64,000 nt of DNA from Ancrocorticia sp. (lineage in GTDB: Bacteria > Actinomycetota > Actinomycetes > Actinomycetales > Actinomycetaceae), in assembly GCA_022648165.1 (NCBI GenBank), contig JALCLX010000005.1:1-64000 (forward strand). The letters are read 5' to 3'. Under the pieces are notes generated by a model that saw nothing but the letters and a program-made list of their open reading frames with translations, searched no databases and was not told where the DNA came from. The position numbers were made by a program, and so were the translations under genes. Positions within the stretch are counted from its first letter, which is position 1. Every line of letters starts with the position of its first letter. Shown here piece after piece: positions 30,717 through 50,600 of this stretch.

Positions 30717-30752
30717 GGTGTGCTCGAGACGCCGTCGCGTTTCGAGCACACC
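30717..30752 (+). promoter_or_regulatory. Intercistronic hairpin after the sugar-binding-protein gene
   Basis: GGTGTGCTCGA (30717-30727) pairs with TCGAGCACACC (30742-30752). It has no T-run. It probably protects the upstream message so that binding protein exceeds permease, as with the hairpin at 12136. Confidence 0.55.
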
Positions 30753-30770
30753 TACCGGGAAGGAATCACT

Positions 30771-31763: not shown

Positions 31764-31764
31764 C

Positions 31765-34943: not shown

Positions 34944-34986
34944 ACACTCGCCTTGCTGCTCGATTAGTCACTCGCCTTGCTGCTCG
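34940..34986. repeat. 24-bp tandem duplication including the yicI stop codon
   Basis: CACTCGCCTTGCTGCTCG occurs at 34945-34962 and 34969-34986. With the preceding TTAGA/TTAGT the unit is 24 bp, and TTAG contains the GH31 stop, so stop and 3' flank are duplicated. Confidence 0.85.
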
Positions 34987-35022
34987 CTGCGTTCACCTCC
35001 CGGCGCAACGAGCAGCAATCTA

Positions 35023-35059
35023 TTGACTTTCAATATATATCGATCGATACTCGATATAT
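35023..35059 (+). promoter_or_regulatory. Promoter of the DUF2975/XRE pair, probably leaderless, with operator
   Basis: TTGACT (35023-35028), a 17-bp spacer and GATACT (35046-35051) place the transcription start at about the ATG at 35058. The inverted repeat ATATATCGA (35035-35043) / TCGATATAT (35051-35059) overlaps both the -10 box and the start codon, a natural site for the operon's own XRE protein. Confidence 0.6.
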
Positions 35060-35531
35060 GTCTCGGTCATACGTTATCATCCTCAAGAGCATTATTGCTT
35101 TCGGTCTACTCTTAGGCATGGGCTCAATTTGGGCCTTCTGGATGCTGTCCGGGGAGATGGCCGCAGAGTATCCGGAATACGCATTTCTTCGTTGGCCTTA
35201 TCTCCTCGTGTGTTGGGCGATCGTATGCTGTTTGGAACTCATTCTCGTGTCGATCTGGGCCCTGTTGCGGCGCGTGGAGCACCATGTCATCTTCGATCGT
35301 CACGCCACGCGGTGGGTCACGGCGCTCATCTGGGCCGGTGGCGCAATCAGCATCTTACTGGTGTGCGCGATCGTTCCCGATATCACCATTACACACGGGC
35401 CTCCCGGACTCACCATCATGCTGATCATTGGAACAGCCGCGAGCATCGGATTCACTCTGTTGATGATCGTAATGCGGGGTTTGCTCGTTCAAGCGACAGG
35501 GCTGAAATCAGAACTCGATGAGGTGATCTAG
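35058..35531 (+). CDS. DUF2975 family membrane protein
   Basis: 157 residues with four hydrophobic segments: a first helix (IILKSIIAFGLLLGMGSIWAF), a second near residues 45-70, then WVTALIWAGGAISILLVCAI and TIMLIIGTAASIGFTLLMIV. DUF2975 proteins are typically encoded with a small Cro/CI-type regulator, as here. Function unknown. No ribosome site upstream of the ATG, fitting a leaderless message. Confidence 0.78.
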   Translation: MSRSYVIILKSIIAFGLLLGMGSIWAFWMLSGEMAAEYPEYAFLRWPYLLVCWAIVCCLELILVSIWALLRRVEHHVIFDRHATRWVTALIWAGGAISILLVCAIVPDITITHGPPGLTIMLIIGTAASIGFTLLMIVMRGLLVQATGLKSELDEVI

Positions 35532-35749
35532 TGATCCGAGTAGATCTGGATGTTCGCCTTGCGGAGCACCGTATGTCCGTCGGAGACTTCGCACAGGCCG
35601 TGGGAATAACTCCAGCCAATGTGGCAGTTCTCAAAAATGGACGAGCTCGCGCGATTCGCTTTTCAACGTTGAACGCGATCTGCCAAGTCCTCAATTGCCA
35701 ACCTGGCGATATTCTGCGGTGGGAACCCGAGCCAACAGAATCTGCCTGA
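35531..35749 (+). CDS. Small XRE/Cro-type regulator (YozG-like)
   Basis: 72 residues forming one HTH (VGDFAQAVGITPANVAVLKNGRARAIRFSTL, here VGDFAQAVGITPANVAVLKN) with the typical LNAICQVLNCQPGDIL ending. The GTG start overlaps the DUF2975 stop (TAGTG). Likely controls its own operon through the repeat at 35035-35059. Confidence 0.88.
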   Translation: MIRVDLDVRLAEHRMSVGDFAQAVGITPANVAVLKNGRARAIRFSTLNAICQVLNCQPGDILRWEPEPTESA

Positions 35750-35817
35750 ATTGCACGTTCGATTCACACTTCAGATGCAAAACCAGGGACAATATAAGTC
35801 TAAGAGAAGGGGGAATT

Positions 35818-36258
35818 ATGAGAATCGCAATGGGAAGCGACCACGCAGGATTTGAGCTCAAGAAACATTTGGCGCAGAAACTGCGCAGCGAAGGGTATGA
35901 CATCATCGACGTAGGCACACATTCCACAGAATCGTGCGACTACCCTATTTTTGGCGAGGCTGCTGCACGGAAGGTCGCCACGGGAGAAGCGGATCGTGCC
36001 ATCGTCATCTGCGGAACCGGCCAAGGCATCGGTATATCTGCCAACAAGGTGGCAGGCGTGCGTTGCGCCATAGTTTCAGAGGCTTTCTCGGCACGACTTT
36101 CGCGCCTACACAACAACGCTAATGCACTCGCACTTGGAGCGCGCGTGATCGGGACGGACGTGGCTGAAGACATCGTTGATACGTGGCTCCATACGGAATT
36201 CCTAGGTGGACGCCATGCCCGCAGAGTCAACGAGATCATGGAGATCAAACCGGAATAA
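35818..36258 (+). CDS. rpiB: Ribose-5-phosphate isomerase B
   Basis: 146 residues. Canonical RpiB: GSDHAGFELKKHL at the N-terminus with the conserved Asp-His, catalytic Cys in ICGTGQGIGISANKV, and LHNNANALALGARVIG. Interconverts ribose 5-P and ribulose 5-P. An AGAGAAGGGGG site precedes the ATG. It lies between the xyloside module and transaldolase, consistent with pentose-phosphate processing. Confidence 0.88.
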   Translation: MRIAMGSDHAGFELKKHLAQKLRSEGYDIIDVGTHSTESCDYPIFGEAAARKVATGEADRAIVICGTGQGIGISANKVAGVRCAIVSEAFSARLSRLHNNANALALGARVIGTDVAEDIVDTWLHTEFLGGRHARRVNEIMEIKPE

Positions 36259-36294
36259 ATCGAAGTGGTATTCGCACTGGTACCATCCCAATCT

Positions 36295-36366
36295 CCTTCA
36301 GAGGAGGAGACGTCTGTTTCACAGCTACATCCCCCGCAGCCTTTACGGCGCCACCTCCTCTGAAGG
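36295..36366. terminator. Long-range inverted repeat between convergent rpiB and tal
   Basis: CCTTCAGAGGAGG (36295-36307) pairs perfectly with CCTCCTCTGAAGG (36354-36366) around a 46-nt loop. It lies between convergent genes, so a bidirectional terminator is the simplest reading. Size (72 bp) and arm length resemble the hairpins at 18872-18940 and 50688-50754. Confidence 0.5.
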
Positions 36367-36475
36367 TTCAACAGTTGCCGAGTACCTCCCGAGAAAACTC
36401 AACAACGCACCCCCGCTGAAGAGGATCATTCTCATCGCCAGGGGTGAAGAATCCACAACCGTTTCTCGGTGAAGC

Positions 36476-37564
36476 TCATTTATCAAGTGTGGAGATCGCC
36501 GTTTTTAGGTTCGTCTCTAGCGCATGCCACGCATCGATAAATTTTTGGACACCCTCTGATTCAAGCACACTGAATACATCCGCAAGGTCAATGCCCGCTG
36601 ACGCTAGTGTTCCAAACACCGCTTCGGCCTGTTCCTTATCCCCAAAGAGTGTGCCAACATGACCGTGATCTGCAAACGCACGAAGAGTCTTTTCAGGCAT
36701 CGTGTTGATAGTGTGCGGTGCGACGAGCTCTGTCACATAACGCGTGTCTGAGTAATGCGGATTCTTGGTTCCTGTCGACGCCCAGAGCACTCGCTGTACA
36801 TGCGCACCTTGAGAAGCCAATTCCTCATAACTTTGGCTGGAGAAAACCTCACGAGCCTTTTCGTACACAAGGCGGGCATTCGCTACGGCAGCCTCACCTT
36901 GAAGTTCCGGATGCCCCAACTCCGCCAGCCGGCGATCCACTTCTGTGTCCACCCGCGAAATGAATACCGATGCCACCGAGCGAATACGGGAAATATCTCT
37001 ACCGTCTTTAGCTGCTCGGGCCAAACCTCGCAAGTAAGCGAGTGTCACCTCTTCGTATCGAGCAACGGAGAAGATCAGCGTTGCGTTCACGCTAATCCCG
37101 CGCGCGATCGCTTCTTCTATTGCTTCCACGCCCTCGTGAGTCGCAGGAATCTTGACGAAAGCATTCTCTTTCCCAACAAGATCCTTCAGCTGTTGGGCTT
37201 GGGCAACGGTCGCCTGTGCGTCGTGGGCCAGGGTTGGTGCCACTTCAATAGACACCCACCCGTCGTCCCCATCGGTGTTTTTGAACGTCGCAGCGAAGAC
37301 GTCGCACGCGTTTTGCACATCTTGTGCGCACAGGTGTTGAATAACTTCCGCTATTGGTAGTGATCTCACTTCCCGAAGCTGATCTTGGTACGAGCGGCCA
37401 TCTGCGATTGCAGCTGCGAAAATCGAAGGATTAGTCGTCACACCCGTAACGCAGTCATTCTTGACCATTTCCGCCAGAGAGCCGCTGGTCAATCGATCAC
37501 GTGATAAGTCATCAAGCCAGATTGATACGCCGGCCTGTACAAGTTCGCAAAGGCTATCAGTCAT
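36476..37564 (-). CDS. tal: Transaldolase
   Basis: About 362 residues, the actinobacterial/cyanobacterial-length type. Visible are GVTTNPSIFAAAI, IEVAPTLAHDAQATVAQA, the Schiff-base Lys in AFVKIPATHEGVEAIEEAI and VNATLIFSVARYEEV. It transfers dihydroxyacetone units between sedoheptulose-7-P/glyceraldehyde-3-P and erythrose-4-P/fructose-6-P. Its place beside a cluster predicted to make erythrose 4-P is suggestive. Confidence 0.92.
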   Translation of the reverse strand: MTDSLCELVQAGVSIWLDDLSRDRLTSGSLAEMVKNDCVTGVTTNPSIFAAAIADGRSYQDQLREVRSLPIAEVIQHLCAQDVQNACDVFAATFKNTDGDDGWVSIEVAPTLAHDAQATVAQAQQLKDLVGKENAFVKIPATHEGVEAIEEAIARGISVNATLIFSVARYEEVTLAYLRGLARAAKDGRDISRIRSVASVFISRVDTEVDRRLAELGHPELQGEAAVANARLVYEKAREVFSSQSYEELASQGAHVQRVLWASTGTKNPHYSDTRYVTELVAPHTINTMPEKTLRAFADHGHVGTLFGDKEQAEAVFGTLASAGIDLADVFSVLESEGVQKFIDAWHALETNLKTAISTLDK

Positions 37565-37704
37565 GTTCTTCTTTCCGCACAATGGGAGGATCTCCCGCCA
37601 CGAGGCGACGGCGCCCCATATTCCAGAACGACACTCAACTTATCACATTATTTGTGGAAATAAACATCTGTAACGTGAATTAGCCCCAAAGAGACATCAC
37701 TTTA

Positions 37705-38652
37705 CTATGCGAGAACTGCGGCAGCAGTTTGAGCGTCAACAAGCAGATCCGTCACTACGCCGGCTTTCAGTACTGCACGTAACGCTGCAGCCTTACGTGG
37801 ATCGGCGACCACCAACAGACGCGTTCTTATCCGCCGAAGTTCGGCAAAAGTCATTCCAGTAGATCGCTCATTGCACGTAATACCTTCGGTGGAACCGTCC
37901 CCACGAAAAAACGTTGCACCCAAATCGCCGACAACATTCTCGGCACGCAGTTCTTCCAAGTCAGCTCGATCAAGATAAGCGGCTCGGTACAAGTGTCCAG
38001 GCAACTCACTCGAAAATGTACCGATAGAAGAAAGCAGAATGTCTGCTTTCTTTCTCATCCCAAGGATCCGGCGAACAGATCGTTCCTGCCACATACAGCG
38101 CTTGGTGTCCACGGAATCAAAGAACGCCGGTACCGGGAAATAGTGAATCGTGCCGCCAGTCGCCTGGCCAAAACGTTGCAGCAATGTCCCCGCGTATTCG
38201 ATCCCAGAAGTTGCCATGTTCCCAGAGCCGTTGAATTGAACAATTCGCAAGCCGCGTACAGGACGTATGTCCAAATGCTTCGAGACCGCTTCGACCGTAG
38301 CTCCCCACGCAACAGTCAGTGTCATGTCTGAGCCGAGCATCCGGTTCAGCAAACGAGCCGCAGCCTCTGCAACAACCTCCAGCCTTTCTCCACTAGACGC
38401 CCCGTCCGATGTTGCGATGACATGACTGTGTACCCCGTAACAACTATCGAGTTGACGCCCAAGATGACCTGAACGATTCTGATCTTGCGACACTGTGAAC
38501 TGGATTATGCCATCTGCCCGCGCCCTGGCCAGCAAACGAGAAACTGTTGAACGCGACACATGAAGGTTTCTGCCTACCTCTTCAACAGTCATCCCGCGGA
38601 TCCAGTACATCTCAGCAGCATCCGCGATTCGCTGCACGGAATCTGAGCTCAT
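37705..38652 (-). CDS. SorC-family sugar-binding transcriptional regulator
   Basis: About 315 residues: HTH (YWIRGMTVEEVGRNLHVSRSTVSRLLARARADGII, seen in VSRSTVSRLL) and a C-terminal sugar-phosphate-binding domain (TLTVAWGATVEAV; ADILLSSIGTF; VVGDLGATFFRGDG). ATG at 38652 with AAGGAAG. It is divergent from the eryI-like gene across 318 bp and is the likely local regulator of the polyol operon; EryD, the Brucella erythritol regulator, belongs to the same family. Confidence 0.85.
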   Translation of the reverse strand: MSSDSVQRIADAAEMYWIRGMTVEEVGRNLHVSRSTVSRLLARARADGIIQFTVSQDQNRSGHLGRQLDSCYGVHSHVIATSDGASSGERLEVVAEAAARLLNRMLGSDMTLTVAWGATVEAVSKHLDIRPVRGLRIVQFNGSGNMATSGIEYAGTLLQRFGQATGGTIHYFPVPAFFDSVDTKRCMWQERSVRRILGMRKKADILLSSIGTFSSELPGHLYRAAYLDRADLEELRAENVVGDLGATFFRGDGSTEGITCNERSTGMTFAELRRIRTRLLVVADPRKAAALRAVLKAGVVTDLLVDAQTAAAVLA

Positions 38653-38970
38653 TACAGCTTCCTTACAAAAACGCAAATCGAGTTCCAAGTAGGGCACCAG
38701 TACGACGTAAGAAATTCCTTTCCATGGAATTAACTAAACAGCCGACGCACAGATTCCCGCCGACCGTAGGACAAAAGGGCATGTATATACCTACGATCGT
38801 TCGCTCTACACGAATATGACTCATATTCCCATCTAAAGTGACAATAGTCAATCGTTAGGGCTAAATAGTGGGAGGATGTCGCAAAACTTCCACATGCGAA
38901 AGATGCGTAGATACTTTCCGTGGAGTTGGCGCCCCCGTCGGAGTGCTCTCAAAGACGAAGGAGTCGAGAA
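38653..38970. promoter_or_regulatory. Divergent regulatory gap between sorC-type gene and eryI-like gene
   Basis: 318 bp with no coding sequence seen. It has a TTCCATGGAA palindrome near 38720, and an AAGGAG ribosome site for the plus-strand gene at its right end. No clear riboswitch fold was recognised. Confidence 0.4.
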
Positions 38971-39462
38971 ATGACAAAGAATCCGGATAAACTCAGCATT
39001 GTTATCGGGTCAGATAGCGTCGGTTATGACTTCAAAAACCAACTTAAAGTGGCTCTTGAGGCTGACCCCAGAATCGACATTCTGATTGATGAAGGGGCTA
39101 AACCTGATGAATCAATCCGTTATGCGAATGTCGCTGAACGATCCGTTCAAAAGGTCTTAACTGGCGAGGCAGATCGTGCTCTTCTCATATGTGGTACGGG
39201 CCTTGGTATGGCTATCTCTGCGAACAAAGTCGCTGGCATCCGCGCGGTAACAGCACATGATATCTATTCAGTGGAGCGCTCAGTGCTGTCAAACGATGCA
39301 CAAGTACTTTGCATGGGCGCTCGGGTCATCGGAGTCGAGTTAGCAAAACGCCTTATCGACCGCTGGCTGGACCTACGATTCGACCCCGAATCGCATTCGG
39401 CAGCCAACGTCGACGCAATTTGCTCTGTTGAATCGCACAATCTGGCTCGAAAGATTCGCTGA
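38971..39462 (+). CDS. RpiB/LacAB-family isomerase, EryI/DerI-like (erythrulose-4-phosphate isomerase)
   Basis: 163 residues. The catalytic Cys lies in LLICGTGLGMAISANKVAGIRA, and HDIYSVERSVLSNDAQVLCMGARVIG is intact. Unlike the canonical RpiB at 35818 the N-terminal motif reads GSDSVGYDFK (Asp-Ser instead of Asp-His), and the C-terminus ends SAANVDAI. Both features recall the erythrulose-4-phosphate isomerases (EryI/DerI), which make D-erythrose 4-phosphate. It is followed 1 bp later by the EryH-like gene. The substrate is inferred from these motifs and the cluster, not proven. Confidence 0.72.
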   Translation: MTKNPDKLSIVIGSDSVGYDFKNQLKVALEADPRIDILIDEGAKPDESIRYANVAERSVQKVLTGEADRALLICGTGLGMAISANKVAGIRAVTAHDIYSVERSVLSNDAQVLCMGARVIGVELAKRLIDRWLDLRFDPESHSAANVDAICSVESHNLARKIR

Positions 39463-39463
39463 C

Positions 39464-40207
39464 ATGGCACAAGCGAAGAAAAGGTTCGCGTTCTTCTCAT
39501 CAAAGGCATATTTGGGCTCCAGCCAATTACGCTCTTGGCTCACCATAGTTGCCGAAAATACACAACCACTTAAGGGTGTCCGGACGGCTGTTCTGCCTCC
39601 ATTTCCGCTATTACCAATGTGTTTGGATGCACTAAGCCCGGCCGCCATCGAAGTGGGAGCACAAAACTGTGCTGCGCGTGAAGATGGCAAACAAACCGGC
39701 GAAGTGCGCGCGAGCCTCTTAGCAGAGCTTGGCTGCTCAATATGCTGCGTTGGCCATTCGGAGCGACGCAGCATGTTCGCGGAATCAGACCAAATAGTGG
39801 CGGCAAAGGTAAAATGCGTTGTCGCTCAGGATATGACGCCATTAATATGCGTGGGCGACAACGAACCGCTCAACTCTACAAAAGCTGCAACCGAGATATC
39901 AAAACAGATACGCAGCGCGCTTCCTGAAATAAACAGTTCCAGTTCTGGTGCAATCATCGCTTATGAACCGATATGGGCGATTGGCGCCCAGGTACCCGCG
40001 TCATCGGCTTTTGTCATAGATACAATCTCGAAGGCGAAAGAAATGCTCCCATCCACATTGAAAGACATTCACTTTATCTATGGGGGAACCGCTGGACCAG
40101 GCACATTTAGAGACATTTCCTCAGTTGTTGATGGGCTCTTTCTTGGAAGAAGAGCACATAATCCATACGAGTTTCTCGACGTTGCAAACGAAATTGCGAC
40201 TGTGTAA
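39464..40207 (+). CDS. Triosephosphate-isomerase paralogue, EryH/LerI-like (erythrulose-phosphate isomerase)
   Basis: 247 residues with the TIM catalytic set: Lys in FFSSKAYLG, His in CVGHSERRSMFAESD, Glu in AYEPIWAIGA, and phosphate loop YGGTAGPGTF. The N-terminal motif is not the GNWKMN of housekeeping TIMs but the SxKxY type seen in paralogues that isomerise L-erythrulose 1-P to D-erythrulose 4-P. PPFPLLPMCLDAL and VGAQNCAAREDGKQTGEV fit that group. Coupled to the EryI-like gene (TGACATG). Confidence 0.75.
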   Translation: MAQAKKRFAFFSSKAYLGSSQLRSWLTIVAENTQPLKGVRTAVLPPFPLLPMCLDALSPAAIEVGAQNCAAREDGKQTGEVRASLLAELGCSICCVGHSERRSMFAESDQIVAAKVKCVVAQDMTPLICVGDNEPLNSTKAATEISKQIRSALPEINSSSSGAIIAYEPIWAIGAQVPASSAFVIDTISKAKEMLPSTLKDIHFIYGGTAGPGTFRDISSVVDGLFLGRRAHNPYEFLDVANEIATV

Positions 40208-40293
40208 GGGGCGACCGAGAGGTCTTTCTATCCGTACAAAAATGAACAGGGCTCGGACGAGCATATCTGGGCTCAATGAAAGTAGAGGTAACA

Positions 40294-41109
40294 ATGGTGT
40301 TAACTAGTATTGTGCAGACAGCGTCTGTACTGCCTGCATCCCTATCAGCGTGGGATATATTCTTTTCCGAATTTCTCGGAACTGCCCTCATGATGGCAAC
40401 AGGAACGGCGGTTAATGCAGCAAACACGCTTCCGAAATCTAAAGGTCGCGGCAGTGGGTGGGTACTCATCACAATCGGGTGGGGCTTCGCCGTGTTTATC
40501 GGCGTATACGGCGGATGGAAAACAGGAGGTCATCTTAACCCTGCTGTCACATTGGCAAAAGTCGTCGCTCACGGTTTCGATCCTTCGGTCACGCTCAATG
40601 GGGCAGCTATTGGCGAAGGCGGCGTCGCCGTCACTGGTGCAAACGTTGCTCTTTATCTAGCAGGCCAGTTCCTCGGCGCCTTTGTTGGCGCAGTGGTTGC
40701 GTGGCTCGCCTTTAAGAAGCACTATGACGAGCCACTGGACAATGATTCTAAGCTTGGGACCTTCTCAACGATGCCTGCCATTCGATCCTACGGATGGAAC
40801 TTCTGCACCGAACTCGTGGCAACGGCTATTCTGGTGACATTCGTTCTTGTCTCCGGTGGGACACCAACACAGATCGGCCCGGTCGCCATCGCATTTGTCA
40901 TCGTTGTACTCGGTATGGGCCTTGGCGGGCCCACCGGATACGCCATGAACCCCGCTCGAGATCTCAGCCCACGCATTGCATTCACTATTCTTCCGATCCC
41001 AGGAAAGACATCGTCTGATTGGGCATACTCGTGGGTCCCCGTATTCGGCCCGCTTGCAGGTGCCGTCGTAGGCACGGTCATCTCATACGGGCTGAACATG
41101 GCAGTGTAA
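40294..41109 (+). CDS. Aquaglyceroporin, GlpF-like polyol facilitator
   Basis: About 271 residues, six membrane segments, NPA motifs in GGHLNPAVT and GYAMNPARDLSPR; the Asp after the second NPAR marks glycerol facilitators rather than water channels. The ATG at 40294 follows AGAGGT. It is placed directly before the kinase gene, so uptake is likely by facilitated diffusion and trapping by phosphorylation. Confidence 0.88.
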   Translation: MVLTSIVQTASVLPASLSAWDIFFSEFLGTALMMATGTAVNAANTLPKSKGRGSGWVLITIGWGFAVFIGVYGGWKTGGHLNPAVTLAKVVAHGFDPSVTLNGAAIGEGGVAVTGANVALYLAGQFLGAFVGAVVAWLAFKKHYDEPLDNDSKLGTFSTMPAIRSYGWNFCTELVATAILVTFVLVSGGTPTQIGPVAIAFVIVVLGMGLGGPTGYAMNPARDLSPRIAFTILPIPGKTSSDWAYSWVPVFGPLAGAVVGTVISYGLNMAV

Positions 41110-41152
41110 CGAATAAACAACATGCAATTGAACAACAATTAGAAAGACAAAG

Positions 41153-42676
41153 ATGTCTGCTGAAAAATATGTCCTGGCAATTGACGAAGGTACATCTTCT
41201 GCTCGTTCGATTCTTTTCGATCACGACGGTCACGAAATCGCCGTATCACAAAAGAGTATCGAGCAAGAATTCCCTCAACCAGGCTGGGTAGAACAAGATC
41301 CTGTCGCAATCTGGAATGCCGTCGCCTTCACAATAGATGATGTCCTTAAGAAGACCGGCATCGCAAAAGAGCAACTCGCCGCAATTGGCGTAGCTAATCA
41401 ACGCGAAACCGCTATCCTTTGGGACAGGAAAACCGGCAAACCCGTCTACAATGCCATCACGTGGCAAGACGTGCGTGAGGATATGAACGATATCGTCAAC
41501 GAAGTCACCGGCGAGGCTGGTCCGGACCGATTTCATGCCGTTACAGGCCTGAAACTCTCGCCAGTATGGTCCGCCGTGAAAATTCGTTGGATCCTTGATC
41601 ACGTCCCCGGACTCCGAGAGCGGGCGGCTTCAGGTGACATCTGCTTCGGCAATCCAGACTCGTGGGTTGTCTGGAATCTCACGGGTGGCACCAATGGCGG
41701 TGTTCACATCACCGACGTCACCAACGCATCTCGGACTAGTCTCATGGACGTCCGGAAGCTTGATTGGCACCCAGAGGCGTGCCAGGCATTTGGTATCCCT
41801 GTCCAGATGCTGCCAGAAATTCGGTCGTCAGTAGAAGTATATGGCGTCGCCAAATATCCAGAGTCAATCGCTGGAGTCGAAGTTGCCGCAGTGCTAGGTG
41901 ACCAACAGGCCGCCACATTTGGTCAAGCATGTGTCAAGTCCGGCATGGCCAAATGCTCATATGGAACTAGTTCCCCAGTATTGATGAATACCGGCGATTC
42001 GCCCGTATTCTCAGGATGTGGATTGGCTACATGCCTCGCTTATCAGATCAAAGGCCAGGCTCCCCAATATCTCCTTGAAAACCAAATCCTCGTCTCCGGA
42101 TCGCTGCTGCAATGGGTACGCGACAAGGTGAAGCTTGTAGACAGCGTTCAAGAGATTGACGAATTGGCCGAATCAGTGCCCGATAACGGAGACGTCTACT
42201 TTGTACCCGCATTCTCTGGGCTCTGGGCTCCTTACTGGCATACAGATGCCCGGGGCACTATCGTCGGCCTAACTCAGTTTCACTCTCGCGCGCATCTCGC
42301 ACGCGCGGCACTTGAGGCTACCGCCTGGCAGATCAAAGACGCGTTCGAAGTGATGCAGAAAGAGGCCAACGTTAAACTGACCGAACTCCGCGTCGACGGG
42401 GGAATGGTGAAGAGTAACTTCCTCATGCAGTTTCAAGCTGATGTTCTGGGAGTAGATGTCGTTGCGCCCGTCAACACAGAAGCAACTTCGTGGGGTGCCG
42501 CATTTGCCGCAGGATTAGCTGTCGGGTTCTGGAATGATGTCGAACAACTTGTGGATATCTGGCAAGAAGACAAGCGCTGGAAACCATCAATGCCACAAGA
42601 AGAAGTCGAAGCAGAATACGAACAATGGCAGAAGGCTGTCACGAAGAGTTTCGGATGGCTCCGAAAGAAGAAGTGA
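41153..42676 (+). CDS. FGGY polyol kinase, glycerol-kinase homologue with altered pocket
   Basis: 507 residues, colinear with GlpK. ATP/phosphate motifs (AIDEGTSSARSILFDHDG), NQRETAILWD with the Arg-Glu pair, VLGDQQAATFGQ with the catalytic Asp, and LRVDGGMVKSNFLMQFQADVLG are intact. Compared with E. coli GlpK recalled from memory, the substrate Tyr in DPYFSGTK is Val here (SPVWSAVK) and the Phe in YGTGCFMLMNTG is Pro (YGTSSPVLMNTG). These positions contact glycerol, so a different, probably longer polyol is likely. A housekeeping glycerol kinase with drift is the alternative. Confidence 0.8.
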   Translation: MSAEKYVLAIDEGTSSARSILFDHDGHEIAVSQKSIEQEFPQPGWVEQDPVAIWNAVAFTIDDVLKKTGIAKEQLAAIGVANQRETAILWDRKTGKPVYNAITWQDVREDMNDIVNEVTGEAGPDRFHAVTGLKLSPVWSAVKIRWILDHVPGLRERAASGDICFGNPDSWVVWNLTGGTNGGVHITDVTNASRTSLMDVRKLDWHPEACQAFGIPVQMLPEIRSSVEVYGVAKYPESIAGVEVAAVLGDQQAATFGQACVKSGMAKCSYGTSSPVLMNTGDSPVFSGCGLATCLAYQIKGQAPQYLLENQILVSGSLLQWVRDKVKLVDSVQEIDELAESVPDNGDVYFVPAFSGLWAPYWHTDARGTIVGLTQFHSRAHLARAALEATAWQIKDAFEVMQKEANVKLTELRVDGGMVKSNFLMQFQADVLGVDVVAPVNTEATSWGAAFAAGLAVGFWNDVEQLVDIWQEDKRWKPSMPQEEVEAEYEQWQKAVTKSFGWLRKKK

Positions 42677-42680
42677 CATG

Positions 42681-42729
42681 CTGGCCCTCGACTGGATGGG
42701 GAATATGTCCCCATCCAGTCGAGGGCCAG
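42681..42729 (+). promoter_or_regulatory. 22-bp perfect hairpin between kinase and dehydrogenase genes
   Basis: CTGGCCCTCGACTGGATGGG and two further bases (42681-42702) pair without mismatch with 42708-42729 around the loop ATATG. It begins 5 bp after the kinase stop and ends 20 bp before the dehydrogenase ATG, sparing its GGGGGAAGG ribosome site. No T-run follows, so it is not a classical terminator. Confidence 0.85.
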
Positions 42730-42749
42730 TTCGAATGGGGGAAGGACGT

Positions 42750-44348
42750 ATGAAACATTATTCTGCTGATCTTGTCGTCATCGGCGGAGGTTCCACTGGG
42801 GTAGGAATCGCACGGGATGCTGCCATGCGCGGGCTTTCGGTAGTACTAGTTGACAAAGGAGATCTTGGTTCGGGAACCACTGGGCGGTTCCACGGTCAGC
42901 TCCACTCCGGAGGCCGATACGTAGTTTCCGATATGGAATCCGCAATTGAATGCGCGCGCGAAAACCACACTCTTCGCCATATCCATTCCGATGCTATCGA
43001 AGACTGCGGTGGCATGTTCACTTTGCTGAGTGGAGACAATCCTGCGTACGCCGATCAATGGATTCAGAAATCCCAGGAGATCGGTTTGCCGTTCCAAGAG
43101 ATCAGCTGCAAAGAGGCGTTTCGCCGAGAACCTCGTCTGAGTCCAACTCTTGCGCGCGCAGCACTTGTCGAAGAAGGCAGTATCGACAGCTGGAAGATGG
43201 TTTGGGGAGCTGTACATTCAGCGCAGGCATATGGCGCCACCGTCCTTCGTTACCACCAGGTGACCGACATGGTCGTCACCGATGGCACCATCAATACAGT
43301 GATATGCCACGATCTACGCCATGACGAGCAGGCGAACATAAGCTGTGCATACGTCGCTAATGCAGCTGGCCCATGGGCAGGGAAAATCGCCGCTCTCGCC
43401 CAGTGTTTTGATGTGGATGTGGTGTGTGGCAGAGGCGTCATGGTAGCCATGAATCACCGTCTCGTCAATACCGTTATCAACCGGTGGGTTTGGCCCGGTG
43501 ACGGCGGCACATTGGTGCCCGCTCATAGTGTGTGTATCATCGGCACCACTGACGTCGTAGATGACGACCCCGATCATCTAGCCATCCCTCGCGTCGAGGT
43601 AGAACAGATGCTCGACTCCGGAGAAGAACTAATACCCGGGTTTAGAAAGGCTCGCGCCTTACGCGCCTGGGCAGGAGCGCGCCCGCTGCTCCACGATAAG
43701 CGCGTAGCTGACGACGACACGCGGCACATGAGCCGCGGCATGAGTATCATTGATCACGAAGACCGTGACGGAATCCAGAACTTTGTGTCAATCATCGGTG
43801 GAAAACTAAGCACTTATCGCCTGATGGCCGAAAAAGTGACCGATATTCTCGCTAAGAAAGCTAACAATCACGCCCTATGCCGTACCGCGTCAGAACCCGT
43901 CCCTGAGGCAAGGGCTGGTTCATACTACGCACTCACCTCGCGGTTCAAGCAACGTGAAATCGAAGGCAAGCGGTCTTCGTCCCACTCTTCTGACGAAGAT
44001 TCACTCGACAACCAGATTATCTGCGAATGCGAACTCGTCACTCGGAAGATGATACTCGACGCACTATCAGAAGATCCTGAAGCAAGTTTCGACGATCTGA
44101 GAAGACGTCTCCGGGTAGGCATGGGGCCATGCCAAGGTGGATTCTGTTCGCAGAGAATCGCAGGGCTCTCGGTAGAAAACGGTTTCTGTAATGCAGCAGA
44201 AGCAACTGCAAGGCTTAGAGATTTCCTTGCAAGACGCTGGAAAGGCGTCATGCCCGTGGCACACGGTCAGCAGGCGCGTGAGATGGCTCTCGACTCGTGG
44301 ATACACGACAATACCCTAGATATACCAGACCTCCTGAAAAACCAATAA
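42750..44348 (+). CDS. GlpA-like FAD polyol-phosphate dehydrogenase with C-terminal [2Fe-2S] domain
   Basis: 532 residues. FAD-binding GGGSTGVGIARDAAMRG and the GSGTTGRFHGQLHSGGRY segment are as in anaerobic glycerol-3-phosphate dehydrogenase subunit A. A C-terminal BFD-type iron-sulfur domain is shown by CECELVTRKM and GPCQGGFC. GlpB and GlpC subunits are absent nearby. Within this cluster it is the candidate for oxidising the phosphorylated polyol (EryB-like role), passing electrons to a quinone or other carrier. Standard glycerol-3-P oxidation is the alternative. Confidence 0.83.
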   Translation: MKHYSADLVVIGGGSTGVGIARDAAMRGLSVVLVDKGDLGSGTTGRFHGQLHSGGRYVVSDMESAIECARENHTLRHIHSDAIEDCGGMFTLLSGDNPAYADQWIQKSQEIGLPFQEISCKEAFRREPRLSPTLARAALVEEGSIDSWKMVWGAVHSAQAYGATVLRYHQVTDMVVTDGTINTVICHDLRHDEQANISCAYVANAAGPWAGKIAALAQCFDVDVVCGRGVMVAMNHRLVNTVINRWVWPGDGGTLVPAHSVCIIGTTDVVDDDPDHLAIPRVEVEQMLDSGEELIPGFRKARALRAWAGARPLLHDKRVADDDTRHMSRGMSIIDHEDRDGIQNFVSIIGGKLSTYRLMAEKVTDILAKKANNHALCRTASEPVPEARAGSYYALTSRFKQREIEGKRSSSHSSDEDSLDNQIICECELVTRKMILDALSEDPEASFDDLRRRLRVGMGPCQGGFCSQRIAGLSVENGFCNAAEATARLRDFLARRWKGVMPVAHGQQAREMALDSWIHDNTLDIPDLLKNQ

Positions 44349-44351
44349 CAC

Positions 44352-44392
44352 CGGACACCTAGGAATCTGACAAGGAGATTAGGGTCCTAACG
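44352..44392. terminator. Possible bidirectional terminator between convergent operons
   Basis: An imperfect inverted repeat (GGACACCTAGGAATCT against GGAGATTAGGGTCC) fills the gap between the GlpA-like gene and the convergent DeoR gene. Confidence 0.35.
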
Positions 44393-44393
44393 C

Positions 44394-45170
44394 TCAGACA
44401 ACTTTGACCACAGGAACAAGTGCACGCAGCATCTCGAGCGTCTCATCGCCCACACTCGCCTCGGTAATTACAACATCTACCTCCGAGAGTGGCAGGAAAC
44501 GATGTAATGCGCGCCGTTGAAACTTGGTGTGATCTACCATCAGGATCTTTGTTCGTGCTGACCGCATCAAAGCCCCTTTCAAGGACGCTACGGTGACATC
44601 GGGATGACAACACATTCCGTCAACGATCGCCGACGTTGACATAACGCAATAATCAGGAGTTAGGCCTTCAATCTGTCGAAGTGTATCGACACCTGCGAAC
44701 GCGTCCGCCCACCGAATGTAGTTCCCGCCGAGCTGAATCAACTCAAGCTCAGAGAACTCAACCACCCTCTCAGCGATGAATCTCGCATACGTAACGACTG
44801 TCATAGGGGCCAAACGTTTCATACCTGGAAAGAGGTGGAGACACGTGGTCGAATCGTCAATCGCCACGGAGCTATTGGGTTCGATGAGCTCCAATGCAGC
44901 CTGCGCAAGCTTTTCTTTGGCTGTCGGTTCGCTAGTCATCCTCACCAGCGCAGAGGCTTCCGCCATAGAGAAGGGAGCTGCAGTCACCCTCCCACGCGAA
45001 CGATGGACTAGACCAGATGCGTTTAGCGAAGCCACATCACGGTATACCGTCATCACCGAGACATCTAGTTGTGATGCGAGCTCCTCAATAGTAACCGAAC
45101 CGGCCTGAGCGACCGCCCCAATAATGGATTGAAGTCGTTGTTCTCGCGATTCTGCTCCCAGTTTTCCCAT
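44394..45170 (-). CDS. DeoR-family transcriptional regulator
   Basis: 258 residues: N-terminal DeoR HTH (REQRLQSIIGAVAQAGSVTIEELASQLDVS; VMTVYRDVASLNASGLV) and a C-terminal sugar-phosphate sensor domain (DDSTTCLHLFPGM; LIQLGGNYIRWADAFAG; MVDHTKFQRRAL). DeoR/GlpR proteins sense polyol or sugar phosphates. A 40-bp near-perfect palindrome lies 5 bp upstream of its start, suggesting autoregulation. It is transcribed in line with the gpsA-like and second kinase genes. Confidence 0.87.
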   Translation of the reverse strand: MGKLGAESREQRLQSIIGAVAQAGSVTIEELASQLDVSVMTVYRDVASLNASGLVHRSRGRVTAAPFSMAEASALVRMTSEPTAKEKLAQAALELIEPNSSVAIDDSTTCLHLFPGMKRLAPMTVVTYARFIAERVVEFSELELIQLGGNYIRWADAFAGVDTLRQIEGLTPDYCVMSTSAIVDGMCCHPDVTVASLKGALMRSARTKILMVDHTKFQRRALHRFLPLSEVDVVITEASVGDETLEMLRALVPVVKVV

Positions 45171-45175
45171 ACGAA

Positions 45176-45215
45176 CATGGTACGCATGCGGACTCGAGTC
45201 TGCATGCGTACCATG
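45176..45215. promoter_or_regulatory. 40-bp near-perfect palindrome before the DeoR gene
   Basis: CATGGTACGCATGC (45176-45189) is mirrored exactly by GCATGCGTACCATG (45202-45215), and the 12-bp centre contains GACTCGAGTC, itself a palindrome. It sits between the gpsA-like stop and the deoR start, so it is either an operator or a cruciform/terminator. Confidence 0.75.
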
Positions 45216-45270
45216 CGCTAGCTAATGTTCATTTGCCGGAACTTGAAACAACTACACTTCAAATGTTTAT

Positions 45271-46317
45271 CTAGCTGTTCAAAGGCCGCACCGCCAAAGC
45301 GACAGCCACCTCCGGGTCTTTGACCGATGCATCGATAATCCCCGCAACAGCAGCTAAGAGCGGCATCTCCCGCGTTACATCAATCCCGTGTTGAGCAACA
45401 AGTTTCATTGCCAAACCAGCTGCTGGATAGCCCTCGACCGTCTGTTCAAGGCGCTCCATTTCCTTGAAGGCGTCTTTCGCGCTTTGGCCTTTGCCGATCC
45501 GGGTGCCATAGACTTTATTTCGTCCGGACAAACCCGTTACTTCTAGGTCTCCCACACCGGCAAGGCCATAAGCGGTCGCTTCTTCAGCACCAAGGCGTTG
45601 GCCCAAGAAAGACATCTCTTTGACAGCCTGCGCGAACGCTGCGGCTTTCAGGTTGTGATGTGGACTACCAGTGGCTTCTCCAAGTCCATCAGCAATGCCT
45701 AGAGCGATAGCGTAGATGTTCTTCATGGGAGCACAGATTTCTACTCCTGTTTCGTCGTCCGTCGCTTTGATCGCGTAATTGTCCGTTGTGGTCATGGCCG
45801 CATAGCGCTTCGCAACGGCCTCATCTTTACATCCAAATATCGTGCATGTGGTCAGCCCAGCAGCACATTCATTGGCTTTGACGGGACCCGCAATTGCAAC
45901 GATAGGTGGCAATGTCACTGCATGTTGAGACGCGATCCTCCGAATAGCATCCGGCAAGAGCTGAATCTTTCCACGTTCATCAGGACTGAATCCCTTAGAT
46001 GTCAACCACATTGCGTCGGCCTTGCTAATGCCACCGAGGGCCAACTCTGTCACCTTCGGTACACCCTGAGAAGCTACGGCCATCACCGCGACATTGACAC
46101 CATCGAGGGCCTCCGCAAGTTGATTCGATCTGTAAAGCTTCACTCCTGGCGCGAGAGGCACGTTTGTCCGGGGATGGGGATGCCCTGCCTCTATCTCATC
46201 AAGCAGGTGATCATCCAACCATGTTCCCCACAGCCGTACGTTCCATCCCGAATCAACGAGTGGCCGGCACAACGCCGATCCCATCGCTCCCGCTCCCAAG
46301 ACCACAATCGTTGCCAT
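45271..46317 (-). CDS. GpsA-family NAD(P)-dependent polyol-phosphate dehydrogenase, divergent paralogue
   Basis: About 348 residues. Rossmann motif VVLGAGAMGSALCRPL, the segment AIAGPVKANECAAG in place of GPSFAxE, and the catalytic-domain region ETGVEICAPMKNIYAIALGIADG with the conserved Lys, plus GLAGVGDLEVTGLSGRNKVYG, show the glycerol-3-phosphate-dehydrogenase fold. The drifted GPSFA and SRN motifs argue for a catabolic paralogue. AAGGAACG precedes the ATG at 46317. It is encoded between a kinase and the DeoR regulator. Confidence 0.8.
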   Translation of the reverse strand: MATIVVLGAGAMGSALCRPLVDSGWNVRLWGTWLDDHLLDEIEAGHPHPRTNVPLAPGVKLYRSNQLAEALDGVNVAVMAVASQGVPKVTELALGGISKADAMWLTSKGFSPDERGKIQLLPDAIRRIASQHAVTLPPIVAIAGPVKANECAAGLTTCTIFGCKDEAVAKRYAAMTTTDNYAIKATDDETGVEICAPMKNIYAIALGIADGLGEATGSPHHNLKAAAFAQAVKEMSFLGQRLGAEEATAYGLAGVGDLEVTGLSGRNKVYGTRIGKGQSAKDAFKEMERLEQTVEGYPAAGLAMKLVAQHGIDVTREMPLLAAVAGIIDASVKDPEVAVALAVRPLNS

Positions 46318-46362
46318 TTCGTTCCTTTCTCTTGTGCGACTTTTCATTCATTCTTCGCACGG

Positions 46363-47925
46363 TTAGCTAGCATCGTGCTTCCGAACAACATCGTCGAGTT
46401 CCGCGAATATCTCCTTCATCTGCGGATAGATCTTTGCCTGAATAGCGCCAATCTCCTTATAACGTTCCCTGAGTCCTTGGTTAGGCTCGACAGTTTCACC
46501 AAAGCGAGCCATCGCTTTCGCTGCACCCGCGACATCGGGAGCCCCGTCTGGAAGTGGTGCACCGTGTGCACCAATCCCCGCCATGGCAAGTACTGCGGCA
46601 CCGAATGCGGAAACCTCATCTACAGAGCAAACAACAAGAGGAACTCCTATGATATCTGCCATTATTTGGCGCCATAGTTCAGAGCGAGTGCCTCCGCCCA
46701 TTATCCGTAGTTCACGGATTCTCTCCCCGCCTGCCTTTTCCAGATAGTCCAGGTTTCTCCGCATTTCAAATCCGATCGACTCCAGGGTTGACCGGTAGAA
46801 ATGTGCACGAGTGTGGGTGCCCCTCCACCCGACGACGACGCCGCGTGCCTTCGCGTCCCAATATGGGGATTGCACTGCATTCCAGTACGGGAGTGTGATG
46901 AGCCCATCACATCCCGGGGCTACATGAGCCGCTTTCTCCGTATCACGAACAACGTCGCAGGATCCCGGGTTATCAGGATCTGCAAACGTATTGCGAACCC
47001 AGTCCGCCAGATAAGATCCAGATGATTGGAGTACCTCCATTACGTAGCTACCCGGAATACCAGAAACGTGAGTTCGGAAGGCTGGATCATACACATAATG
47101 CGAGGATTCGATGCCTGCGTTGACGGCAGTACCCATGTTGAGATACCCGATGCCCGGGTCTACAGCGGCAGCGCCGATGCCCGCGGCCTGGCCATCTCCT
47201 AAACCGGCGATAACCTCTACGGTTGGTATGCGCCATTCAATTGCAAGCTCCGGGCGAAGCACACCCATAGATGTGGCCGGCGGTACCAACCGAGGCATCT
47301 GTTCGCGCCGGACCCCCGCTATCGCGAGCAACTCGTCAGACCAATCCCGCTTCTTGATATCGAACAATCCCAACGAATCCGCCGCAGCTTGCGACGTAAC
47401 CCACTCGCCTGTCAGGTGGAATGCTATTGCCGCGTGAACTTCCGCAACACGGTCGGCCTTCTCAAAGAGCTCCGGGTGATGCTCTTTCACCCACGCCATC
47501 TTATAAATCGCCGGAGTCACGCCCGCAGGTTTGCCTGAGAGCTCATGGAGGTGCGCAGAACCGTAGCGGGCGATCTGGTCAACCGCCCGACCGTCGAGCC
47601 ACAGAATACCGTTAGCTAGTGGTGTTCCATCTTCTCGGAACGGAGCAAAAGACTCCCGTTGATGGGTGATCCCGATCGCTTTGATCCGATCGCGGTCCAC
47701 TTGAGTCAGTTTCGCGACAGCATCCGCAATAGAGTCTCGCGTAGTCTGCCACCACAACGCAGGATCATGCTCGTAAAAATCCATGTGAGGGGTGAGCAGT
47801 GGAATAAGATGCTTTGCCTCCGCCACAACATTGCCGGCGATGTCGACCACGATGGCTTTCGTTGATTGTGTTGACGAATCTATTGCAATAACTAATGGCC
47901 CCTCAACACTGGTCATGTTACCCAT
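46363..47925 (-). CDS. FGGY-family carbohydrate kinase (second kinase of the polyol locus)
   Basis: About 520 residues. FGGY_N AIDSSTQSTKAIVVDIAG, GITHQRESFAPF, LWLDGRAVD, catalytic Asp in GLGDGQAAGIGAAA, and FGGY_C ELRIMGGGTRSELWRQIMADIIGVP. It is nearer to xylulokinase-type than to GlpK-type members. Start 47925 follows AAAGGA; an alternative ATG lies three codons downstream. Substrate could be a ketose or polyol entering the same pathway as the plus-strand genes. Confidence 0.8.
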   Translation of the reverse strand: MGNMTSVEGPLVIAIDSSTQSTKAIVVDIAGNVVAEAKHLIPLLTPHMDFYEHDPALWWQTTRDSIADAVAKLTQVDRDRIKAIGITHQRESFAPFREDGTPLANGILWLDGRAVDQIARYGSAHLHELSGKPAGVTPAIYKMAWVKEHHPELFEKADRVAEVHAAIAFHLTGEWVTSQAAADSLGLFDIKKRDWSDELLAIAGVRREQMPRLVPPATSMGVLRPELAIEWRIPTVEVIAGLGDGQAAGIGAAAVDPGIGYLNMGTAVNAGIESSHYVYDPAFRTHVSGIPGSYVMEVLQSSGSYLADWVRNTFADPDNPGSCDVVRDTEKAAHVAPGCDGLITLPYWNAVQSPYWDAKARGVVVGWRGTHTRAHFYRSTLESIGFEMRRNLDYLEKAGGERIRELRIMGGGTRSELWRQIMADIIGVPLVVCSVDEVSAFGAAVLAMAGIGAHGAPLPDGAPDVAGAAKAMARFGETVEPNQGLRERYKEIGAIQAKIYPQMKEIFAELDDVVRKHDAS

Positions 47926-47987
47926 ATAAGTCCTTTCCGATCTTCTTTGATCGCGACTTTTCGCGCAATTCGAGATTACCACCATTT

Positions 47988-48003
47988 ATGTTGTTTTCAA
48001 CAT
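47988..48003. promoter_or_regulatory. Inverted repeat in the promoter region of the kinase/gpsA-like operon
   Basis: ATGTTG-TTTT-CAACAT lies 63 bp upstream of the kinase ATG, a plausible DeoR- or SorC-type operator. No identical copy was seen before the eryI-like or deoR genes. Confidence 0.4.
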
Positions 48004-48118: not shown

Positions 48119-49171
48119 CTACCTCCACACGCCAGGAAGTTTCGTGCCGCAGTGAGCGCATGTACCCGTTCCGTCTGCGCGCGCATTCACACCGACAACT
48201 TCGGTGACGTACCAGTTGCGTTTGACGGCAACGGCACCGCATCGCGGGCAATAGGTCGATTGGCCGCGTGGATCAGAAATGTTGCCTGTGTATACGAAGT
48301 GTTCCCCGCCGCGCATGGCGATTTCGCGTGCCCGCTTGAGAGTCTCTGGCGGTGTGGGTGGGCGGTCCATCATTCTGAAGTCTGGATGAAAAGCCGAGAA
48401 ATGATGCGGAACATCCGGGCCAAGATGACTCACAATCCATTCGGCCATCGCGGCGATTTCCTCGTCCGAATCGTTGAGTCCGGGGATGAGCAGTGTTGTG
48501 ATCTCCACCCAGCACCCCGAATCCTGCGCAATCTGCAGCGTTGTCAACACCGTAGAAAGCCGCCCGCCCGTCACCTTCCGATAGAAATCCTCCGTAAAAC
48601 CCTTAAGGTCAATATTGGCGGCGTCCATCGATGCGAAGAATTCACGCGCAGGGCTAGGCTCGATATACCCTGCCGTCACTGCTATCGGGTGGATTCCCTT
48701 CGCTCGGCAGGCGCGGGCCGTATCGATCGCATACTCTGCAAAAATCACCGGATCGTTGTAGGTGAACGCCACTGATGCACACGCCGAACTCGCCGCTGCG
48801 CTGGCTATTTCTTCCGGCAAAGCCTCCGCCGCAAGCGAATCCCACTCGCGCGATTTACTGATCTCCCAATTCTGGCAGAACTTGCATCCCAGGTTGCACC
48901 CGGCGGTCCCAAATGACAGCACACGTGAACCAGGTAAAAAATGGTTGAGCGGTTTTTTCTCCACCGGATCGATCGCGAATCCGGAGGACCTCCCATACGT
49001 AGTTAACCGCAGCGCTCCACCCGAGTTCGCCCGAACAAAACAGAAGCCGCGCCGGCCATCGCGCAGCGTGCAGAAGCGCGGACACAGCACACACCGCACC
49101 CGTCCATCCGCGCAACGCTCCCACCACCGCGCCACCCGGCCAGTTGCCACAGATTCAGCAGTTGCGCTCAT
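48119..49171 (-). CDS. amrS: AmmeMemoRadiSam system radical SAM enzyme
   Basis: 350 residues. The radical SAM cluster motif is CNLGCKFCQNWEIS; an upstream Cys set (CVLCPRFCTLRDGRRGFC) and a C-terminal zinc-ribbon-like pair (CPRCG...CAHCG) are also visible. GTAGCNLGCKFCQ is characteristic of the AmrS family, related to pyruvate-formate-lyase activators. It starts 7 bp after the fused amrB-amrA gene. The biochemical product of the system is not established. Confidence 0.9.
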   Translation of the reverse strand: MSATAESVATGRVARWWERCADGRVRCVLCPRFCTLRDGRRGFCFVRANSGGALRLTTYGRSSGFAIDPVEKKPLNHFLPGSRVLSFGTAGCNLGCKFCQNWEISKSREWDSLAAEALPEEIASAAASSACASVAFTYNDPVIFAEYAIDTARACRAKGIHPIAVTAGYIEPSPAREFFASMDAANIDLKGFTEDFYRKVTGGRLSTVLTTLQIAQDSGCWVEITTLLIPGLNDSDEEIAAMAEWIVSHLGPDVPHHFSAFHPDFRMMDRPPTPPETLKRAREIAMRGGEHFVYTGNISDPRGQSTYCPRCGAVAVKRNWYVTEVVGVNARADGTGTCAHCGTKLPGVWR

Positions 49172-49178
49172 GGCACAC

Positions 49179-50600
49179 CTACCTCAGCAAATGCGACGCT
49201 TGTACGCGATACGTCTCTACCTCGATCGCTGGATCCCACCAGTTCGGAGGCAGACCGGCCTTCCGCAGCAACCCGGAAACGAAGTCGTAAGGTTGCGGCA
49301 ACTGGTTCCACACTTGTGGCAAGAACGTTCCCCGATGCGCGCCATACGTCAACACGGCGCCGTCGAACCCCGGCAACAGCCGCCGCTCCACTTCTTCCCG
49401 AGTCAATCCCCGCGTAGGATCCTCCGGTTTCATCGGCCGCGGCTCGGTAAGCACTGACACTTCGATATCGGCCCGTTTCAACTCGGCCTCAGTGAGTTCA
49501 GGGAATCTTGGATCCTCGAATGCTGCCGCCCGGGCGTTCGCCGCAACGTCCTCGCCCAACGGCCGCCGAGCCGCCAGCGAACCAATACAACCGCGAAGGC
49601 GCCCATCCAAGGTGAGCGTCACAAAAGCGGCACCCGGTGCCGCAAAAGCCGCGCTCGCACCGCCATCGGCACCACTAGAACCATTTTCGACGACGGCGGC
49701 GCCGCCCGCGAACGCGCTGGCAATCGATTCGTACGCCAACCGCGGCAAAGTTTGGTCAGGCGGTGAAACTGGTTCGTTCCAACGAAATGCTGCGTACCCC
49801 ACCACGCGGGAATGGTCTCCTGCAGTATCCCCCGAATTGCGCGCATCCAGCAGCTCCGGAGTCAAGCCCCTCGCTGCAGCGAACGCCATCATCCCGGACA
49901 GTGGGAAAGCGCCGCATGCCTGTTCTCCTACAAGTGCTGGGGCACCGGCAAGAATCTGGCGGATAGTTTTCCCGTCAGTGGCCCGTGCGGCATCATATTC
50001 CAGATAATGCGACATGTCTGAGGAAATGAGGATAGCTGTATCCGGCATGTTCCACGCGAGCCGAATCGCCGCAGCTACAACCTCCGGTTCCACCACGCCA
50101 ACCGCGAGTGGCACCACAGTAAAGCCGGGTTTAAGGTACCGCTGCAGGAAAGGCATATGCACTTCCATCGAATGCTCTTCAGCATGGACTCGCGGGGCTG
50201 TCACAACATCGGGTAATGCCGCCAACTTCGCAGTCAATTCACCATCAGTTCGAATACGGCCAAGCGGCGTCTCCTGCCAATCCGCCCCGGTAAGCGCCAT
50301 GCCACGGATACCCACACGGTGCGTCGGCCCCAAGATCAGCACTCTCCGTGTGGCTGGGTCCAATTGACGGTAAGCGTACGCCGCCGTCGCGCCTGAATAC
50401 ACGTATCCCGCGTGTGGTGCAGAAACTGCGCGCGCATACGGGCGATTCGGAACCCGGGAATCTGAAGCGCCATTCCTGGAGGAGCGTGGCAGAACCTCCT
50501 GCGGCACAGCTTCCAGCAATGAATCGACTTGACGCGCTAAATCCCCCGGATCGCCTGGATAAAAGAAGCCTGCAACAGCAGGATGACGAATGGTTTCCAT
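49179..50600 (-). CDS. Fused AmmeMemoRadiSam proteins B (MEMO1) and A (AMMECR1)
   Basis: 473 residues. The N-terminal MEMO domain (residues ~5-265) has the metal-ligand-type motifs SAPHAGYVYSG, EEHSMEVHMPFLQ and SSDMSHYLEYD. The C-terminal AMMECR1 domain (from ~285) has the invariant LRGCIGSLAARRPLGEDVA and ARAAAFEDPRFPEL. In many genomes these are separate genes; here one polypeptide joins them, supporting a stoichiometric complex with AmrS. Confidence 0.9.
   Translation of the reverse strand: METIRHPAVAGFFYPGDPGDLARQVDSLLEAVPQEVLPRSSRNGASDSRVPNRPYARAVSAPHAGYVYSGATAAYAYRQLDPATRRVLILGPTHRVGIRGMALTGADWQETPLGRIRTDGELTAKLAALPDVVTAPRVHAEEHSMEVHMPFLQRYLKPGFTVVPLAVGVVEPEVVAAAIRLAWNMPDTAILISSDMSHYLEYDAARATDGKTIRQILAGAPALVGEQACGAFPLSGMMAFAAARGLTPELLDARNSGDTAGDHSRVVGYAAFRWNEPVSPPDQTLPRLAYESIASAFAGGAAVVENGSSGADGGASAAFAAPGAAFVTLTLDGRLRGCIGSLAARRPLGEDVAANARAAAFEDPRFPELTEAELKRADIEVSVLTEPRPMKPEDPTRGLTREEVERRLLPGFDGAVLTYGAHRGTFLPQVWNQLPQPYDFVSGLLRKAGLPPNWWDPAIEVETYRVQASHLLR

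Follow-up and report, generated by a model that had tools for sequence, protein, structure and literature searches.

A putative four-carbon polyol operon of Ancrocorticia sp. that joins tetrulose-phosphate isomerases to glycerol-type enzymes

Organization of the locus

The window analysed here is a stretch of 64,000 nucleotides of Ancrocorticia sp. (contig JALCLX010000005.1, assembly GCA_022648165.1); it was compared with contigs C2, C3, C4 and C7 of the same genome, which comprises 18 contigs (2.18 Mb). The locus under study consists of five genes on the plus strand and a regulator gene divergent from them. The first, rpiB2 (38971–39462), encodes an RpiB-family isomerase assigned to the DerI/EryI type by clade and residues, and the second, tim2 (39464–40207), a triosephosphate isomerase (TIM)-family enzyme assigned to the LerI/EryH type by clade, residues and the approximately unbiased (AU) test. 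They are followed by glpF (40276–41109) for an aquaglyceroporin of the GlpF/MIP family, a predicted tetritol/glycerol channel matching TIGR00861 below its cut-off, by glpK (41153–42676) for a GlpK-like FGGY kinase with an altered substrate pocket (TIGR01311 above cut-off), and by glpA (~42750–44348) for a GlpA-like flavin adenine dinucleotide (FAD) polyol-phosphate dehydrogenase with a BFD [2Fe-2S] domain (TIGR03377 above cut-off, Fer2_BFD). The SorC-family regulator (PF04198) is encoded on the minus strand at 37705–38652, and the divergent intergenic region between sorC and rpiB2 (38698–38970) carries an inverted repeat.

The gaps between successive plus-strand genes are 1, 68, 43 and 73 nucleotides, the tim2 start lying 1 nucleotide past the rpiB2 stop, and the five genes look like a single operon divergent from sorC. 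Every gene named in a preliminary description of this DNA proved to be an intact, full-length open frame in its expected place. Starts were refined from upstream sequence for sorC (38652), rpiB2 (38971), tim2 (39464), glpA (~42750) and the FGGY2 kinase gene described below (47925). The open frame of glpA runs far upstream (42534–42750), overlapping glpK, whereas the start that is conserved lies near 42750. Promoter and terminator scans gave no more matches than shuffled sequences did.

Phylogeny and active sites of the isomerases

The genome holds another TIM, RpiB, GlpK and GlpA, so the term paralogue used in the preliminary description was correct. The housekeeping TIM (C4:101572) stands beside that of Trueperella pyogenes in the tree. 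The ordinary RpiB, encoded in the window at 35815–36258, belongs to the E. coli (C66/H99) type, unlike the actinobacterial type of most relatives. The only other trace of RpiB in the genome is a fragment of 77 residues (G000:C3:189501-189662) adjoining a split transketolase, an FGGY kinase and an aldolase.

In a TIM tree of 57 rows, TIM2 falls inside a superclade of 37 rows (support 100/97) whose members are the TIMs of erythritol, threitol or erythrulose-type loci, and within it in the LerI-like half (25 rows, 100/95). Forcing TIM2 among the housekeeping TIMs was rejected by the AU test (p 0.0017). The catalytic residues K13, H95 and E167 are retained in TIM2 and in all TIMs compared. Two further positions separate the groups: N11 and G233 occur in all 20 housekeeping enzymes, S11 and R233 in TIM2 and in all 34 other erythrulose-phosphate TIMs. 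Among solved structures the second-best match of TIM2 is PDB 11ef, deposited as L-erythrulose-1-phosphate isomerase and 92% identical to the TIM (EryH) of an Ochrobactrum locus with eryA, B, C, D, deoR, H and I. TIM2 is thus predicted to interconvert L-erythrulose 1-phosphate and D-erythrulose 4-phosphate. A phylum-wide search for its relatives returned no closer locus, and a profile scan of genome contigs with the TIM2 alignment gave mostly ordinary TIMs, with few true relatives among the matches listed.

RpiB2 was placed in a DerI-like clade (25 rows, 100/100) of a 67-row tree, apart from both groups of housekeeping RpiB. Residue 99 (E. coli numbering) is histidine in 30 of 30 pentose-type enzymes and serine in RpiB2 as well as in all 34 members of the tetrulose-type groups. 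RpiB2 retains C66 and shows the replacements H99 to S, H10 to S and R137 to N. H99 of E. coli RpiB is established as the residue that opens the sugar ring; its loss would make sense, because a four-carbon 4-phosphate is unable to form the ring. The predicted reaction is the interconversion of D-erythrulose 4-phosphate and D-erythrose 4-phosphate. RpiB2 reaches neither the NF051858 nor the TIGR02133 cut-off, and its 161.7 bits against the rhizobial model rule out the rhizobial equivalog but not the function.

The residue patterns of both enzymes repeat the trees in part, yet they concern catalytic positions. Relatives of the two isomerases are encoded side by side in loci with dihydroxyacetone kinase (Dak)-type kinases, in Actinomycetota and others, or with eryABCD. 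The preliminary description had held that grouping of the isomerases with pentose or housekeeping enzymes would refute its proposal. Trees and active-site residues, and for TIM2 the AU test, instead place both in the erythrulose-phosphate groups, EryH/LerI and EryI/DerI.

Kinase, dehydrogenase and channel

A complete glycerol operon, consisting of glpA, glpB, glpC, glpF and glpK with a divergent SorC gene, is present on contig C2. The window proteins are related to its products with identities of ~55–57% (GlpA), 59% (GlpF) and 54% (GlpK). Glycerol-type proteins stand here in place of EryA/EryB, as proposed earlier, or of LerK. Among 213 genomes of the family, a second high-scoring GlpA occurs in the host alone and a second high-scoring GlpK in the host and two others (3 genomes in all).

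The window GlpK meets the TIGR01311 equivalog cut-off (632 versus 590 bits). Seven residues contact glycerol in E. coli GlpK, as established from its structures. None of the seven varies among the 31 kinases compared, which include the other GlpK of the genome and that of E. coli. The window GlpK retains five of them (R83, E84, W103, D245 and Q246, E. coli numbering), but Y135 is replaced by V and F270 by P, and G268 and C269 by S. The smaller side chains on the Y135/F270 side could leave room for a fourth carbon.

At 10 of 118 invariant columns the window GlpA has another residue. One of these changes is L50 to Q, in the loop that precedes the conserved GGRY motif; leucine is invariant there in 31 others. 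The window GlpA is ~24–25% identical to EryB. The window GlpF retains both NPA motifs and the NPAR arginine, and GlpF has been reported to transport erythritol in E. coli (PMC10190533).

The sole Dak1 gene of the genome (C7:117660) is unlinked to the locus, and the Dak1 search of the genome revealed no Dak kinase linked to it. The lack of an EryC-like epimerase, noticed earlier from the locus, extends to the genome's three AP_endonuc_2 proteins, none of which is EryC-like.

Regulator and origin of the operon

The window SorC and that of a tetritol-type locus with a Dak kinase in another family (L120) form a pair (43% identity, 91/91), and in L120 too the regulator gene is divergent from a unit containing rpiB and tim. 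The SorC proteins of glp operons form a separate group (92/94), although some long branches meet in the tree. A perfect inverted repeat of 8+8 nucleotides, GAATATGA-C-TCATATTC, lies at 38812–38828 between sorC and rpiB2; it is a possible operator, short enough to have arisen by chance. The two SorC intergenic regions have no repeat in common.

The simplest history would be that a tetritol-type regulator and an isomerase pair were joined to a duplicated and diverged glycerol set. G+C content is 0.51–0.55 over 28001–48000 of the window and 0.66–0.72 at 1–6 kb; the lower values are compatible with acquired DNA.

Four loci of the same family, one of them in the same genus, combine an EryH-type TIM with a Dak-type kinase (L250, L251, L252 and L029, in genomes G018, G004, G016 and G003), which argues that erythrulose-phosphate pathways were gained in this family by more than one route. 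A further locus of the family (L023, 8394–16031, genome G014) combines a LerI-like TIM and an RpiB with an aldo-keto reductase, a DeoR regulator and a protein judged RuBisCO-like by eye, and possibly encodes a D-apionate-type pathway ending in L-erythrulose 1-phosphate.

Proposed pathway and stereochemistry of the substrate

We consider it likely, from family membership, clade and active-site residues, that sorC and the divergent rpiB2-tim2-glpF-glpK-glpA genes form an operon for the catabolism of a four-carbon polyol. Such a compound would enter through the GlpF channel and be phosphorylated at one end by the GlpK-like kinase, and the GlpA-like flavoprotein, working with GlpB/GlpC from the main glp operon or without them, would oxidise the adjacent carbon, yielding L-erythrulose 1-phosphate. 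By moving the carbonyl, TIM2 would then form D-erythrulose 4-phosphate, and RpiB2 would convert this to D-erythrose 4-phosphate, which transaldolase and transketolase would carry into central metabolism. On the same (minus) strand as sorC, and 3' of it, is a gene for a transaldolase (Tal) of mycobacterial type (36476–37564), whose product scores above the cut-offs of TIGR00876 and NF002881. The isomerase half of this scheme appears well supported by family, clade and active site; the entry half, in which uptake and the substrates of kinase and dehydrogenase are inferred, is plausible.

The identity of the polyol may be approached through stereochemistry. C3 of L-erythrulose 1-phosphate is S, and the polyol 1-phosphates that give this compound on oxidation at C2 are L-threitol 1-phosphate (2S,3S) and the 2R,3S erythritol phosphate. 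CH2OP and the other carbon change places in priority, so that a tetritol 1-phosphate with S configuration at C2 has the geometry of sn-glycerol 3-phosphate. If GlpK and GlpA have kept their geometry, L-threitol would be converted directly to L-erythrulose 1-phosphate, which would explain the absence of EryC, while erythritol would give D-erythrulose 1-phosphate and EryC would be needed, as in Brucella. In E. coli, LerI and DerI turn L-erythrulose 1-phosphate into erythrose 4-phosphate, EryC being required for the D form alone (PMC10733421). This reasoning favours L-threitol as the substrate.

The same operon and the same L-erythrulose 1-phosphate node could alternatively serve erythritol, a possibility to which we give something under a one-in-three weight. 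Erythritol would be phosphorylated at the end opposite to that used by Brucella EryA, giving D-erythritol 4-phosphate, and this would be oxidised directly without EryC. Erythritol is commoner in nature than L-threitol, the altered GlpK pocket could hold the polyol reversed, and such a route has been described biochemically in Propionibacterium. A study of P. freudenreichii, which uses erythritol, did not find the Brucella ery genes and was unable to reconstruct the pathway (PMC4437456); the P. pentosaceum biochemistry cited there includes L-erythrulose 1-phosphate. Two classes of erythritol kinase, EC 2.7.1.27 and EC 2.7.1.215, are moreover recognised (PMC10536098). However, erythritol would require of both GlpK and GlpA a geometry opposite to that of sn-glycerol 3-phosphate, and the sequences give no sign of this.

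The adjacent FGGY2-GpsA2-DeoR module

Beyond glpA lie three minus-strand genes. They encode a DeoR-family regulator (44394–45170; 52% identity to the DeoR of the corresponding module in genome G001), the polyol-phosphate dehydrogenase paralogue GpsA2 of the nicotinamide adenine dinucleotide type (45271–46347; PF01210/PF07479), and the kinase FGGY2 (46363–47925), which scores below every NCBIfam FGGY cut-off. Directly upstream of FGGY2 are an AmmeMemoRadiSam radical SAM gene and a gene for a fused AmmeMemoSam B-A protein (48119–50600).

It had been proposed that FGGY2 and GpsA2 form a second branch of the pathway, handling another tetritol stereoisomer or a ketose and feeding the same isomerases. 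We regard such a combined locus as improbable. The three genes do adjoin the operon, and two carriers of the module, G001 and G025, also hold an S99-type RpiB elsewhere. In these two genomes, however, the module is a stand-alone unit, and with its own DeoR it occurs in genomes that have the housekeeping TIM only (G001, G025 and G029, the last with a broken copy). In G219 the unit has a zinc alcohol dehydrogenase inserted. In G398/G323 its neighbours are a zinc alcohol dehydrogenase, a sugar ABC transporter and a class II aldolase/short-chain dehydrogenase/reductase protein, which point to a longer polyol. GpsA2 orthologues are 64–70% identical in G001, G025 and G219, and FGGY2 orthologues (53–73% identical) stand beside GpsA2 in relatives. 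The idea that all genes of the locus serve one pathway was rejected on these grounds, and FGGY2-GpsA2-DeoR is best treated as a separate polyol module.

Dense polyol loci are also present in G001 (L295, 478–14322), G025 (L296) and a Rubrobacter plasmid (L079); they encode several kinases of the FGGY family, together with enzymes resembling GpsA and sn-glycerol-1-phosphate dehydrogenase.

Discussion

The four-carbon polyol logic first proposed for this region thus holds for the isomerases, for the substitution by GlpF, GlpK and GlpA and for the missing EryC, and is not supported for the second kinase/GpsA branch, which is an independent unit in relatives. Its portrayal as a new assembly is also sustained within the survey, in which no other genome has a second high-scoring GlpA and no locus combines a LerI/EryH TIM with GlpK and GlpA; plasmid searches likewise returned no such locus.

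Several observations weigh against assigning the operon to a four-carbon polyol. S99-type RpiBs occur also in loci without a LerI/EryH TIM (those of G001, G025 and the Rubrobacter plasmid), and the S99 signature may therefore extend beyond tetrulose phosphates. The branch of TIM2 is long (1.79), and the AU test rates its placement with EryH as only slightly worse (p 0.0503), which leaves us unsure of its position within the superclade. The arrangement of the operon recurs in no other surveyed genome, so that conserved synteny offers no support. The window GlpK differs at 36 of 188 otherwise invariant columns; the two contact changes alone are thus no statistical excess, and in a kinase that seems generally diverged they are suggestive rather than proof. 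The locus has neither glpB nor glpC, a convergent deoR coming after glpA. Finally, GlpK and GlpA exceed the curated NCBI cut-offs for glycerol kinase and anaerobic glycerol 3-phosphate dehydrogenase, and a role in glycerol use thereby keeps some standing. Nevertheless, we think it unlikely that this is a backup or specially induced glycerol operon with the isomerases as bystanders or helpers of glycolysis: the curated models and the 54–59% identity of GlpF, GlpK and GlpA to the glp-operon copies speak for it, but the clades and residue signatures of TIM2 and RpiB2, the full glpABC-F-K set elsewhere in the genome, the changed kinase pocket and the tetritol-locus type of regulator all speak against it.

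Read as a tetritol operon, the locus may be compared with four known systems. With eryABCD-deoR-eryH-eryI of Brucella and the Rhizobiales it shares a SorC regulator, an FGGY kinase, an FAD polyol-phosphate dehydrogenase, TIM-like and RpiB-like isomerases and erythrose 4-phosphate as end product. It differs in that kinase and dehydrogenase are of GlpK/GlpA stock, a GlpF channel stands in place of the ABC transporter, EryC is absent, the isomerases are nearer to the LerI/DerI groups and the regulator lies outside the EryD group.

The closest relatives of TIM2, RpiB2 and SorC belong to the route of the Mycolicibacterium smegmatis type (polyol dehydrogenase, LerK/DerK, LerI, DerI) and to the many similar loci of Actinomycetota, Listeria and Enterococcus. 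In these, oxidation of the polyol precedes phosphorylation of the ketose by a Dak-type kinase; the window locus has no Dak kinase, and its kinase is predicted to act before the phosphopolyol dehydrogenase.

With the erythritol pathway of Propionibacterium, the operon would have L-erythrulose 1-phosphate and the absence of an epimerase in common; that pathway is described by biochemistry only, its genes not being known (PMC4437456). Tentatively, and with rather less than even confidence, we suggest that the genes of the GlpK-like and GlpA-like enzymes are those still lacking for the actinobacterial erythritol route (an EC 2.7.1.27 kinase forming D-erythritol 4-phosphate, then direct oxidation to L-erythrulose 1-phosphate) or belong to a phosphorylate-first L-threitol route. 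We know of no organism shown to use the latter. The locus provides concrete gene candidates for actinobacterial tetritol use, given the unreconstructed P. freudenreichii pathway (PMC4437456). The replacements H99S in RpiB and N11S and G233R in TIM also separate tetrulose-phosphate isomerases from the housekeeping enzymes whose names automatic annotation gives them.

The glpABC-glpF-glpK operon of Actinomycetaceae, finally, is the stock from which GlpF, GlpK and GlpA derive, and it has the same layout with a divergent SorC. Unlike it, the window locus is without glpB and glpC, has rpiB2-tim2 added and the kinase pocket changed, and has a regulator of another clade. Glycerol enzymes may thus be re-usable for a four-carbon polyol by the addition of two tetrulose-phosphate isomerases.

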